Positions 16,816-51,659 of a stretch of DNA of 64,000 nucleotides are shown here, piece after piece; the first letter of the stretch is position 1; each line of letters opens with the position of its first letter. Location of the stretch: NCBI GenBank assembly GCA_021608145.1, contig JAKIHM010000008.1, positions 1 to 64,000 on the forward strand, in the 5' to 3' direction. This stretch comes from Thermovorax subterraneus. GTDB lineage: Bacteria; Bacillota; Thermosediminibacteria; Thermosediminibacterales; Thermosediminibacteraceae. The position numbers were made by a program, and so were the translations under genes. The notes beneath the pieces were generated by a model. It was not told where the DNA came from and ran no database searches. It saw only the letters and a program-made list of their open reading frames with translations.

Positions 16816-17008
16816 AGTCAATTTCCCTGCTGTGTGCGTGGACCTGACAGAGGAAAGAGCCAACACTATGACATAGGGAGTCCGGACTCTGGATGTGGAT
16901 TGTATGCCCTCCTTATGAGAGGGAAACATGAATCATCCAGGAGGACACCCACGTGGGAGAGCAGGGTCTCTGTTCCTTGTCAGTACACGGCATGGCGGGG
17001 TTTTTGTT
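16816..17008 (+). ncRNA. ssrS: 6S RNA (RNA polymerase-binding regulatory RNA), probable
   Basis: This is the bulk of the 320-nt gap between aspS and the csoR-like gene. About 190 nt can fold as a long interrupted rod, the 6S shape. Bases 16825-16837 pair with 16983-17000 near the ends; GATTGTATG with CATGAATC and CCCTC (16907-16911) with GAGGG (16919-16923) build the apical arm. The same 5' strand can instead pair with AGCAGGG (16960-16966). The RNA ends in a GC-rich stretch and T run. B. subtilis 6S-1 also lies beside aspS. 6S RNA mimics an open promoter and holds housekeeping RNA polymerase in stationary phase. Identity is by structure and position, not a database match. Confidence 0.75.
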
Positions 17009-47170: not shown

Positions 47171-48403
47171 ATGCACGGGCCTGTCCTCACGGTCAGCGAA
47201 CTGACCGGAATGATAAAATATTTGTTTGATTCCAACGAAATCTTAAGGCAGGTTTATGTTCGCGGCGAAATTTCGAATTTTAAATACCACCTTTCAGGTC
47301 ACTTATATTTTGTTTTAAAAGATGAAAAAGCTCAAATCCGTTGTGTAATGTTTAAAAACCGAAGCATTTTGTTGCCTTTCATGCCGGAAAATGGAATGAA
47401 AGTAATTGCTTTCGGTTACGTTACGGTGTACGAAAGAAACGGAGAATATCAGTTATACGTCGACGATATGCAGCCCGACGGAATAGGCGCACTTTATTTG
47501 GCTTACGAAAAATTGAAGGAAAAATTGAAAAAAGAGGGCCTATTTGATGTAAGTTCCAAAAAACCTATTCCTTTCTTACCCAAAAATATAGGTATTATAA
47601 CTTCTCTAAACGGTGCGGCCATAAGAGACTTGCTAACGGTTATACGGCGAAGGTATCCAAATGTGAATATTCTGATAGCTCCGGTATCGGTTCAAGGTAA
47701 ACAAGCTGCTGATGAAATTTGCGAGGCGATAAAGGACCTAAATAAGATAGGAAATCTAGATGTGATAATCCTGGGCCGTGGAGGAGGCTCGATAGAAGAA
47801 CTGTGGACTTTTAACGAAGAAAAAGTGGCTCGAGCGATATACAGTTCAACAATTCCGATAATATCAGCTGTAGGTCATGAAACTGATTATACCATAGCCG
47901 ATTTCGTTGCTGACAAAAGGGCACCTACGCCTTCAGCAGCGGGGGAAATGGTAGTTCCGGAAAAGAAACAATTAATTTCTGAGATAATGCAGAGAAAGAA
48001 AAGGTTATTAGCTGCTATTTGCGCAATTATTAATACAAGAAAGCAGGAGATTGAATATATAAGAAGATCAATCGTTTTTAAAAAGATTCGCTCAGAAATA
48101 GACAATAACCGGATTTTAATGGATTCTCTAATGAAAAGCCTTGCTAAAGGAATTTTAAATAATCTGTCGAATAAAAGAGCCGATTTAAAATTTTTAGCAG
48201 GGAGACTTGATATTTTAAGCCCTTTAGCAGTGTTAGAGAGAGGATACAGTATATGTCAGACGTTGGACGACTTTAAAGTTGTGAAAAGAATAGAAGATGT
48301 TGAGGTTGGACAGCAAATCAAAGTAGTCATTTCGAACGGTTACCTGCTCTGTTGTGTAAAAAGTAAGGAAAAAAAAGGAGAGAAAAATGATGCCGGAATA
48401 TAA
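47171..48403 (+). CDS. xseA: Exodeoxyribonuclease VII large subunit
   Basis: A 410-residue subunit with an N-terminal OB domain (VYVRGEISNFKYHLSGHLYF) and a nuclease domain with GRGGGSIEELWTFNEE (near 203) and SAVGHETDYTIADF. Forms the ssDNA exonuclease VII with XseB. ATG 47171. It overlaps xseB by 17 bp. Confidence 0.97.
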   Translation: MHGPVLTVSELTGMIKYLFDSNEILRQVYVRGEISNFKYHLSGHLYFVLKDEKAQIRCVMFKNRSILLPFMPENGMKVIAFGYVTVYERNGEYQLYVDDMQPDGIGALYLAYEKLKEKLKKEGLFDVSSKKPIPFLPKNIGIITSLNGAAIRDLLTVIRRRYPNVNILIAPVSVQGKQAADEICEAIKDLNKIGNLDVIILGRGGGSIEELWTFNEEKVARAIYSSTIPIISAVGHETDYTIADFVADKRAPTPSAAGEMVVPEKKQLISEIMQRKKRLLAAICAIINTRKQEIEYIRRSIVFKKIRSEIDNNRILMDSLMKSLAKGILNNLSNKRADLKFLAGRLDILSPLAVLERGYSICQTLDDFKVVKRIEDVEVGQQIKVVISNGYLLCCVKSKEKKGEKNDAGI

Positions 48404-48620
48404 ATATGAGGATGCAATAGCCCGCCTTGAAGAGATTATTGAAAAGCTAGAACAAGGCAACCTCTCTTTGGAGGAGTCGTTGTCGCTTTTTGAAGAAGGA
48501 ATTAAACTTACAAAGATTTGCACGAAAATTTTGGATGAGGCAGAAGGACGCGTACAGGTTTTAATAAAAGATTTGAATGGCCAGATAGATTTCAAAGATT
48601 TTGATGGAGGGTGCATCTAG
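48387..48620 (+). CDS. xseB: Exodeoxyribonuclease VII small subunit
   Basis: A 77-residue helical hairpin protein with the signature YEDAIARLEEIIEKLEQGNL. ATG 48387, or the next ATG 48390, follows AAAGGAG. It is followed immediately by ispA. Confidence 0.96.
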   Translation: MMPEYKYEDAIARLEEIIEKLEQGNLSLEESLSLFEEGIKLTKICTKILDEAEGRVQVLIKDLNGQIDFKDFDGGCI

Positions 48621-48622
48621 AA

Positions 48623-49513
48623 TTGCAAAGTTTTGAAATGGAATTAAAAGAAATTGGGAAAATAATAGAAAAAGCTCTGGATAACTACCTGCCAAAATCC
48701 AATGAATATCCGTCAAAAATTCATGAAGCCATGCGCTACAGCACCTTCAATGGTGGAAAGAGGATAAGACCGATTTTAACGATAAAAGCAGCGGAATTAT
48801 TCGAACTGCCGGGCGAAAAAGTGTTGCCGACTGCGTGCGGAATAGAAATGATACATACCTATTCCCTTATCCACGACGACTTACCAGTAATGGATAACGA
48901 CGATTTCCGAAGGGGAAAACCCACTTGCCATAAAGTCTTCGGAGATGCCATAGCGTTGTTGGCCGGAGATGCTTTGCTGACCTTAGCATTCAGAACTATA
49001 GCTAAAAATGCTCAAATTGAAGGTATATCATTGAGAGCGGTGATAGAAGTTATAGATAGAATATCTTTGGCCTCCGGAAGCTTGGGTATGATTGGAGGTC
49101 AAACCGTAGATATTTTGTCGCAAGGTATTGACATAGATGAAAATACTTTGTTTTATATGGATAACCATAAAACCGGTTGTCTTATCAGGGCGTCTTTGTG
49201 GTCGGGAGCAAGGTTGGCGGAAGCTCCGGTGTCAGACCTGGATAAATTAGACAAGCTGGGGGAAAAAATTGGTCTTATATTTCAAATAGTCGATGACCTT
49301 CTGGACGTGCACGGGGATGAAAAAAAATTAGGGAAGCCCGTAGGAAGTGACGTAAGGAACAAGAAAAGTACTTTCTTGAGTGTTTACGGATATGAAAAAT
49401 CAAAAAAATTGGTGAAAGTTCTTTCCGATGAGTCAAAAGAAATAGCGAGCGAATTTAAAAACAGTAGATTTTTTATGCAGTTTATCGATTTTCTAGTAGA
49501 AAGGCAGTATTAG
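48623..49513 (+). CDS. ispA: Polyprenyl (farnesyl/geranyl) diphosphate synthase
   Basis: A 296-residue short-chain prenyl synthase. The first Asp-rich motif is DDLPVMDNDD (near 90), the second is DDLLD (near 229), and the substrate block NGGKRIRP (near 45) is intact. It makes isoprenoid diphosphates, probably farnesyl diphosphate. TTG 48623 is chosen over GTG 48611, which overlaps GGAGGGTG. In OLE-containing genomes it is usual to find xseA-xseB-ispA just upstream of OLE. Confidence 0.95.
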   Translation: MQSFEMELKEIGKIIEKALDNYLPKSNEYPSKIHEAMRYSTFNGGKRIRPILTIKAAELFELPGEKVLPTACGIEMIHTYSLIHDDLPVMDNDDFRRGKPTCHKVFGDAIALLAGDALLTLAFRTIAKNAQIEGISLRAVIEVIDRISLASGSLGMIGGQTVDILSQGIDIDENTLFYMDNHKTGCLIRASLWSGARLAEAPVSDLDKLDKLGEKIGLIFQIVDDLLDVHGDEKKLGKPVGSDVRNKKSTFLSVYGYEKSKKLVKVLSDESKEIASEFKNSRFFMQFIDFLVERQY

Positions 49514-49594: not shown

Positions 49595-50236
49595 AGTAGT
49601 ACATTTCGGTAGTTAAGGTGGAACAGGTGGTGCAGTATTCTAGTCGAAATCCTCTTCTCTGAAGACGGGGCTAAAAATCCGTCGAGGGCACATCGATGAA
49701 GTTCCTTGTGCTGGCTTTCGACGCCCAGTCGGGGGTTGGTGCAGGGAGTAAGGGAGTGGGGCAACCTGCAAAGGCATGCAGGCGCGACCCTACTTCCGTG
49801 GAGACCTAAGTGCGTGATGGAAGGCTAAAAGCCTCCTGTTACGGCTTAGGGCGTGAACCTGCATCCGATACAAACCGTGTTGGGTGCAGTGTAGCCTGCC
49901 TTGAGCGGGAAGGGTGGAAAAAGGGAAAACGCATTTAAACTGGCCATTTAAATGCGGCTTAATTACCTTTGAAACCCTTACTGCAAAAGAGGCTAGGAGA
50001 AGGTGGATTTCGGTGAGGAAAACTCCTAGACTGTTCCGAAAGGAAGTGGACTGAGGATTGCAGTGCGGACTAAGTGGCAATCCAGCCCTGCCTTTGGCGA
50101 CAAGGCAGAGAGAGGCGTAAAGGGGAACCGCCTTTTCCGGCGACGGGAGGTGCTTCTCTGGGAAATCCTGCTGGACCTAAGCCGCAAAATTTACTCAGTT
50201 CACTACCTCCTGTTCCACCTCGTTTGAGGTGAATTT
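49595..50236 (+). ncRNA. ole: OLE RNA (ornate, large, extremophilic)
   Basis: A gene-free, GC-richer stretch of about 640 nt. Its ends form a long-range stem: 49616-49627 pairs perfectly with 50209-50220 (12 bp), and TGGTG with CACTACC adds to it. In between are many short helices and G+A-rich joints. OLE RNAs are about 600 nt, belong to anaerobic or extremophilic Firmicutes, lie near isoprenoid genes and are followed by oapA, exactly as here. The RNA forms a membrane ribonucleoprotein with OapA and has been linked to alcohol, Mg2+ and cold stress in Bacillus halodurans. Call rests on size, context and end pairing. Confidence 0.92.
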
Positions 50237-50240
50237 TTTT
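50216..50240 (+). terminator. Terminator-like hairpin at the OLE/oapA junction
   Basis: CACCTC (50216-50221) pairs with GAGGTG (50226-50231) over a GTTT loop, followed by AA and seven T residues. The same GAGGTG is the oapA ribosome-binding site, and the CACCTC arm is part of the OLE closing stem. Confidence 0.65.
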
Positions 50241-50847
50241 GAGTAAAAACAATAACAAAAAAATCACGTGCAAAAAAAACAACGGAGGACCAAAAGCTAG
50301 ATGGATATATAAAGTTGTGGTATTAACTTTTGGGCTTTCCGTTTTTTTTAGCTTTATTTCGGAAACATTGATGGATAAGTTGAACGTAATCTTATCATTT
50401 TTTATTTTGTCCTCCATAGTATTCATAGGGATAATATTTGATATTATAGGAATAGCAGTTACCTCTGCCGACGAGACCCCTTTTCATGCCATGGCAGCTC
50501 ATAAAATTCCTGGGGGGAAAGAGGGGGTACGGCTTATTAGAAATGCCGATATAGTGTCAAATTTCTGCAATGACGTCATTGGCGATATCTCAGGGATAAT
50601 AAGCGGTGCAGCAGGCGCTTCTATAGTAGCGAAAATAATTTATGGTAATAATGACGTGCCGGAAATAATAATTAGCACTTTAATCGCTGGAACGATTTCA
50701 ACAATTACGGTAGGTGGAAAGGCCTTAGGCAAGAGTTTAGCTATAAAAAAATCCAAGGAAATCGTCTATAAGGTCGCGTATATTCTCTATTTTTTAAAAA
50801 AACGTTTCGGAGTTGAATTGTTTCCAAAAAAATCGGGCAAATACTGA
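50239..50847 (+). CDS. oapA: OLE-associated protein A (OapA), membrane protein
   Basis: A 202-residue membrane protein that partners OLE RNA. The N-terminus is strongly basic (KNNNKKITCKKNNGG), followed by four hydrophobic segments (about 28-44, 52-75, 120-140, 144-160). Known OapA proteins bind OLE and hold it at the membrane. TTG 50239 lies inside the T run of the preceding hairpin, 7 nt from the GAGGTG ribosome-binding site, so expression depends on the hairpin state. It lacks any database check; context makes the call strong. Confidence 0.9.
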   Translation: MSKNNNKKITCKKNNGGPKARWIYKVVVLTFGLSVFFSFISETLMDKLNVILSFFILSSIVFIGIIFDIIGIAVTSADETPFHAMAAHKIPGGKEGVRLIRNADIVSNFCNDVIGDISGIISGAAGASIVAKIIYGNNDVPEIIISTLIAGTISTITVGGKALGKSLAIKKSKEIVYKVAYILYFLKKRFGVELFPKKSGKY

Positions 50848-50864: not shown

Positions 50865-51659
50865 TTGCCAAAACAAAGGTTAGATGTATTGTTGGTACAA
50901 AGAGGCTTCTTTCCGAGCAGGGAAAGGGCAAAATCCGAAATTATGATGGGGAACGTATTTGTAAACAATGTGAAGGTAGACAAACCTGGAACTCTCGTTG
51001 ATATAAACGCGGAAATACAAATTAAGGAAAAGTCTTTGCCGTTTGTGAGCAGGGGCGGATTAAAATTAAAAAAAGCTTTGAGCGTTTTTCCGGTTGTCGT
51101 TAAAGATAAAGTGGCATTGGATGCGGGGGCTTCAACCGGTGGATTTACGGACTGCCTATTAAAAGAGGGTGCCACTAAAGTCTACGCCGTTGACGTTGGT
51201 TACGGGCAATTGGACCTTTCTCTTAGAAACGACCCGAGGGTAATAAACATCGAACGAAAAAATGTGCGTTTCCTTTGTTTTGAAGATATAGGCGAACTTG
51301 TCGATATAATTACGGCCGATCTTTCCTTTATATCTTTATCAAAAGTATTTGAGCCTCTCTTTAAACTACTGAAAGAAGATGGAGACTTTATAGCACTTAT
51401 AAAGCCACAATTTGAAGTGGGAAGGGAAGACGTAAAAAACGGCGTTGTTCGAGACAGAAAATTGCATGAAAAGGCGATTACCCAGGTAATTGAATCGGCG
51501 AAATCGATTGGATTATATTGTCAGGGGTTGACTTTTTCTCCGATAAAGGGACCTAAGGGGAATATTGAATTTTTATCGTGGTTTAAAAAAATTCCGAATA
51601 ATACTTCTGGAATAGAGATTGAAAAAGTTGTCGAAGAAGCACATAAAGCGCTAAATTAA
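50865..51659 (+). CDS. tlyA: TlyA-family rRNA (cytidine-2'-O)-methyltransferase
   Basis: A 264-residue protein with an N-terminal S4 RNA-binding domain (KQRLDVLLVQRGFFPSRERA) and an FtsJ-type methyltransferase domain: ALDAGASTGGFTDCLL (SAM site, near 84), KPQFEVGREDV and GNIEFLSW. TlyA methylates 16S and/or 23S rRNA; the sequence cannot show which sites. TTG 50865 after TGAGGTG. In other OLE genomes dxs often sits here; it is absent. Confidence 0.92.
   Translation: MPKQRLDVLLVQRGFFPSRERAKSEIMMGNVFVNNVKVDKPGTLVDINAEIQIKEKSLPFVSRGGLKLKKALSVFPVVVKDKVALDAGASTGGFTDCLLKEGATKVYAVDVGYGQLDLSLRNDPRVINIERKNVRFLCFEDIGELVDIITADLSFISLSKVFEPLFKLLKEDGDFIALIKPQFEVGREDVKNGVVRDRKLHEKAITQVIESAKSIGLYCQGLTFSPIKGPKGNIEFLSWFKKIPNNTSGIEIEKVVEEAHKALN

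Follow-up and report, generated by a model that had tools for sequence, protein, structure and literature searches.

Among bacterial RNAs of unsolved function, those of the OLE class are some of the largest and best conserved, and they form a membrane ribonucleoprotein (RNP) with the proteins OapA, OapB and OapC. The frequent position of dxs beside ole and oapA, and the fact that Dxs and GapA have a substrate in common, have been noted as a hint of a link (PMC10898510). Does OLE depend on DXS, or is dxs a neighbour that can be lost? This question is raised by a window of 64,000 nucleotides from Thermovorax subterraneus, the whole stretch of DNA that was analysed and to which plain coordinates refer. 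An earlier note, made from the letters of this window, had recognised an OLE locus with tlyA in the place of dxs, and had proposed it as a useful variant for asking what the tie between OLE and isoprenoid genes means. OLE is already known; the arrangement without dxs is a new and informative variant.

The OLE locus and its neighbours

The Rfam model for OLE (RF01071, gathering score 50 bits) matches the forward strand of the window at 49611-50225 over its full length (model 1-616 of 616) with 516.1 bits and an E-value of 1.8e-148, which settles the identity of the locus and answers the search that had been suggested for 49.6-50.2 kb. The earlier note had described a structured RNA of roughly 640 nt. 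The structure is well supported, as the minimum free energy fold is far more stable than those of shuffled sequences (z -11.7), whereas the length had been overestimated and comes to ~615 nt. The perfect closing stem of 12 bp is present exactly as claimed. The features of the locus, all on the forward strand, are as follows:

47171..48403, +, xseA, exonuclease VII large subunit, 410 aa; open reading frame, named from operon order and the earlier note
48387..48620, +, xseB, exonuclease VII small subunit, 77 aa; open reading frame, upstream of ispA in the compared loci
48611..49513, +, ispA, farnesyl diphosphate synthase, 300 aa; NF045485 with 340 bits (cut-off 275), PF00348
49558..49587, +, putative OLE promoter; TTGAAG, 18 nt, TATAAT, with TG before the second hexamer; 10/12 in a consensus scan
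49611..50225, +, OLE RNA; RF01071, full length
49616..49627, +, OLE closing stem, 5' arm; AGGTGGAACAGG, perfect 12-bp helix with 50209-50220
50209..50220, +, OLE closing stem, 3' arm; CCTGTTCCACCT, pairs with 49616-49627
50216..50231, +, hairpin CACCTC-GTTT-GAGGTG, then the T-run AATTTTTTT; the 3' arm is the ribosome-binding site of oapA
50239..50847, +, oapA, OLE-associated protein A, 202 aa; TTG start, follows OLE in the compared loci
50865..51659, +, tlyA, rRNA methyltransferase; TIGR00478 with 271 bits, above cut-off; directly after oapA, in the usual dxs slot

In a comparison of 97 OLE loci, the two ends were joined by a longest perfect helix of 8.8 bp on average in the native pairing versus 5.6 bp in a control in which 5' and 3' ends were exchanged between loci, and 78 different arm sequences were counted. 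Hence the closing stem is a structure kept by compensatory change and not a product of chance. The predicted promoter just upstream of the RNA agrees with the separate promoter reported for OLE of B. halodurans (PMC9723947). Elsewhere in the window, at 16821-17005, there is a 6S RNA (RF00013, 105 bits).

The gene order xseA-xseB-ispA-OLE-oapA-tlyA is the one that had been read from the open reading frames, with family models identifying ispA and tlyA and with no dxs between oapA and tlyA. OapA carries the DxxxD motif described as distinctive for this protein (PMC11332333) within CNDVIGD, both aspartates (D112 and D116) being invariant in our alignment; its resemblance to CNNM is weak (PF01595, E 1.3e-4, below the cut-off of that family). 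With the type case, OLE of Halalkalibacterium halodurans, the locus shares the full-length model match and the closing stem; in both, ispA precedes OLE, oapA follows it directly, and recN and argR-type genes lie farther along the same strand. It differs in that dxs is found neither between oapA and tlyA nor anywhere else in the genome, and in that its host is also devoid of dxr.

One local feature might suggest a regulatory role for the end of the RNA. In the hairpin at 50216-50231 the 5' arm overlaps the OLE closing stem and the 3' arm (GAGGTG) is the ribosome-binding site of oapA, and hairpin and stem together could act as a switch that exposes or masks this site. However, terminator-like matches are about equally common in shuffled sequences, and among the relatives compared the hairpin is present only in the genus of the window and in one further genome (G007), being absent from Thermosediminibacter and most of the order. 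A conserved switch at the 3' end of OLE is therefore ruled out, and we regard a switch of this kind as highly improbable.

Loss of dxs and dxr across the order

The premise that dxs usually lies just downstream of OLE was borne out: of the 90 OLE-oapA loci whose downstream sequence extends for 1 kb or more, 75 have dxs adjoining oapA. These loci are a sample of nearest relatives chosen by similarity to the window's OapA and not at random. A comparison of gene order across relatives, which had also been proposed, placed dxs directly after oapA, between oapA and tlyA, in most relatives outside the order, and showed the same arrangement as in the window for relatives within it. That dxs is not next door proved to be an understatement. 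In the window genome (2.45 Mb in 44 contigs, 100% complete) no open frame passes the TIGR00204 cut-off for dxs of 465.95 bits; the best match reaches 247.5 bits, and the matches below the cut-off are split transketolase subunits and E1beta. Neither dxr nor HMG-CoA reductase was found in a genome-wide search. We then examined 22 genomes of the order (G000-G021), comprising the window genome and its Fervidicola, Thermosediminibacter and Tepidanaerobacter relatives. Not one of the 22 has dxs above the cut-off, as against 18 genomes outside the order, and not one has dxr. HMG-CoA reductase, the marker by which the mevalonate pathway was judged, is likewise absent from all 22, which speaks against a switch to mevalonate in the order.

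Assembly gaps are not the reason for these absences, since both genes are likewise missing from G006, G011 and G012, each of which is assembled as one contig. A relocation of dxs is ruled out for the window genome and the order, with no match above the cut-off genome-wide; a second OLE copy with dxs beside it, which the earlier note had named as a possibility to be looked for, does not exist either, as the window genome holds one OLE and no dxs. Relocation as such does occur: in two outgroups (G028, G037) dxs and OLE lie on different contigs. Transketolase was considered as a special substitute for DXS and rejected, its split pairs scoring alike in outgroups that keep DXS.

OLE is present in 31 of 32 near-complete relatives, at one copy per genome (two fragments in G002). 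All 14 order genomes that are at least 90% complete keep OLE, ispG, ispH and the DRL catalytic domain, and 13 of them have ispD above the cut-off; the exception, G015, contains ispG and ispH and no full ispD match. In the window genome ispD is followed by ispF, a gene also found in G006, G010 and G011. In the outgroup genome G022 dxr is flanked by cdsA and rseP, a slot that a YtvI/AI-2E permease takes in the window genome and G006 (one at L052 14374-15414). Probably the ancestor of the order lost both genes once, dxs from the oapA-tlyA interval and dxr from the cdsA-rseP interval, and retained the lower MEP pathway (ispD, ispF, ispG, ispH).

Independent losses and the fate of OLE

The order is not the only group in which OLE stands without dxs. 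In a scan of named genomes, carried out with the OapA alignment and followed by a gene-order survey, OLE without adjoining dxs was also found in a Tissierellaceae bin, Schnuerera sp. xch1, Anaerosalibacter, Lentibacillus halodurans and Virgibacillus sp. MSJ-26. When whole genomes were queried jointly with Dxs, Dxr, HMG-CoA reductase, DRL and IspF, none of these five (three Tissierellales, two Bacillaceae) gave a dxs or dxr match, indicating that dxs had been lost and not moved; all 14 named controls with dxs beside OLE carry dxr as well. The three Tissierellales keep ispF and DRL and gave no match to HMG-CoA reductase in their whole genomes, while in those of the two Bacillaceae HMG-CoA reductase is present and ispF was not found. 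Hence OLE is kept together with the standard MEP pathway, with an MEP pathway minus DXS and DXR-I, and with HMG-CoA reductase instead. Some further loci depart from the common order. In a Clostridia bin (L105 371-1627) ispA, OLE and oapA are followed by a shikimate dehydrogenase-like open reading frame in place of dxs. Two bins labelled Actinomycetota carry OLE at L121 8209-8807 and L136 6350-6948 (460 and 485 bits) together with oapA, and ispA, dxs and tlyA are not nearby; only 24 OLE matches have been reported outside Bacillota, for which gene transfer or assembly error was suspected (PMC11332333).

If OLE served DXS, it might be expected to serve whatever has replaced DXS in these genomes. 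For H. halodurans a link between OLE, glyceraldehyde 3-phosphate and Dxs has been suggested (PMC10898510), the frequent closeness of dxs and oapA fits such a tie to DXS or to glyceraldehyde 3-phosphate, and some substitute for DXS must exist if MEP is made. However, OLE persists in Lentibacillus and Virgibacillus, where dxr and ispF are missing along with dxs and where isoprenoids, with HMG-CoA reductase at hand, need no DXP synthase; moreover, DRL lies beside OLE in none of the DRL loci examined. We consider such a tie distinctly unlikely. Decay of OLE after the loss of dxs is ruled out as well, the scores within the order (498-546 bits at full length, with one partial match of 481) being as high as or higher than those elsewhere (170-547 bits).

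That OLE is kept intact in genomes without dxs argues against an obligatory link between the two, and in this respect the locus does inform the tie to isoprenoid genes, as had been anticipated. Very probably, the intact OLE-OapA unit has outlasted an order-wide loss of dxs and dxr and has no need of DXS or DXR-I, and OLE would have stayed in place throughout. The usual closeness of dxs would then be inherited from a common ancestral operon, with no obligatory functional pairing behind it. In H. halodurans OLE and OapA form a membrane stress-response RNP (PMC12265935). By analogy, the OLE-OapA unit of the window organism is most likely an RNP of the same type, with dxs as a separable neighbour in an ancient operon. 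A link of OLE to ispA, to prenyl diphosphates or to membrane lipids more generally may exist, because ispA stays beside OLE throughout the order.

Possible MEP formation without DXS and DXR-I

How could the lower MEP pathway be fed in these organisms? DRL (DXR-II) is encoded in 21 of the 22 order genomes; two copies, each with a DRL_cat domain, occur in the window genome. The copy compared in full is homologous over its whole length to DRL of Brucella abortus (3UPL, 3UPY; E 2e-112) and shares the substrate-anchoring and dimer residues Lys191, Lys193, Thr229, Glu174, Phe178, Arg320 and Tyr322 (numbering of PMC3847144). The diagnostic DXR-II residues Gly121, Lys191, Lys193, Thr229, Arg320 and Val351 are conserved in one alignment, whereas His250 is replaced by Ile. 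Other differences from the Brucella enzyme are the placement of several copies in an operon with PTS and E1-E2-E3 genes and the absence of DXS from the hosts. A Thermosediminibacter oceani and a Tepidanaerobacter sequence have been classed as DXR-II before (PMC3847144). Judged by its sequence, DRL can account for the loss of dxr, as it would make MEP from DXP. The DRL tree indicates that 'housekeeping' placements arose more than once, beside transaldolase and PTS enzyme I or, in Tissierellales, beside an HI0933-like flavoprotein. Three genomes from outside the order (G041, G042, G045) likewise combine DRL with an MEP pathway devoid of DXS and DXR-I.

Several DRL copies, one of the two in the window genome among them, belong to an operon with the order gutM-srlA-srlE-srlB-DRL-E1alpha-E1beta-E2-E3, which occurs in more than one genus: it recurs in G000, G006, G011 and G043 and is near-identical in G022. 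Its full extent is given for G000, where E1alpha/beta span L048 7625-9713; a further DRL locus is L066 9417-10709:

G000, C11:324760-334438 (L048 2760-12438), SorC-type regulator, GutM, sorbitol-type PTS (SrlA, SrlE, SrlB), DRL, E1alpha, E1beta, E2, E3

The operon looks like one for import and breakdown of a branched polyol of the 2-C-methyl-D-erythritol type. In the direction of breakdown, the PTS would yield MEP, DRL would convert it to DXP, and E1-E3 would split this into acetyl-CoA and glyceraldehyde 3-phosphate; running in reverse, the same operon would make MEP. We found no published description of such an operon, and literature searches on OLE with mevalonate or dxs and on methylerythritol catabolism returned nothing useful.

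The best candidate for a source of DXP is the acetoin/pyruvate-dehydrogenase-type E1 beside DRL. It would make DXP from pyruvate and glyceraldehyde 3-phosphate for DRL to turn into MEP, in an operon whose original role would have been methylerythritol breakdown. Besides the recurrence of the gene order, it speaks for this idea that E1 mutants of the E. coli pyruvate dehydrogenase make DXP (PMC3424233) and that the same paper, citing its reference 39, refers to pyruvate and acetoin dehydrogenases as enzymes that form 1-deoxyketoses. The E. coli suppressors that make DXP without DXS (aceE and ribB mutants) resemble the present case in that DXS is bypassed, possibly via a 2-oxoacid-dehydrogenase E1; in the order of the window the state without DXS is natural and order-wide. 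However, G010, which is 99% complete, has DRL and no E1beta match; E1 is thus not the general answer, and E1alpha/beta as a universal substitute for DXS is ruled out. Nor is there an E1 beside DRL in G041 and G042, and in G022 and G024 DRL occurs together with a normal dxs and dxr. We therefore put E1 as the DXP source forward as a tentative possibility.

Alternatively, these bacteria might be auxotrophs that import precursors of MEP, for example 2-C-methyl-D-erythritol through the sorbitol-type PTS, and such salvage might have allowed dxs and dxr to be lost together. The joint loss and the sorbitol-type PTS next to DRL in many genomes are what one would expect under salvage, yet in G005, G010, G041 and G042 DRL has no PTS IIB/IIC genes as neighbours, and free-living hosts from many habitats would depend on a constant external supply. 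Salvage seems unlikely to us. To return to synthesis, MEP formation would have passed to DRL and to a DXP source other than classical DXS. That the order and, independently, some Tissierellales run the MEP pathway without DXS and DXR-I, through DRL and a putative DXP-forming enzyme, possibly E1, and that OLE is intact and independent of DXS there, has in our estimate about an even chance of being correct as a whole.

Conclusions

The closeness of OLE and dxs has been offered as a clue to OLE (PMC10898510), and the genomes described here, as natural knock-outs, uncouple OLE from DXS. Retention of OLE after the loss of dxs is seen in at least three lineages: in two of them DXS and DXR-I are lost within the MEP pathway, and one has HMG-CoA reductase and lacks dxr and ispF besides dxs. 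The same genomes expose a gap in isoprenoid biochemistry, as they contain no recognised enzyme for DXP. Among the OLE hosts without dxs are two named isolates, Fervidicola ferrireducens and Thermosediminibacter litoriperuensis. The variant is useful because with it the question of whether OLE and DXS belong together becomes testable, in nature as well as at the bench.
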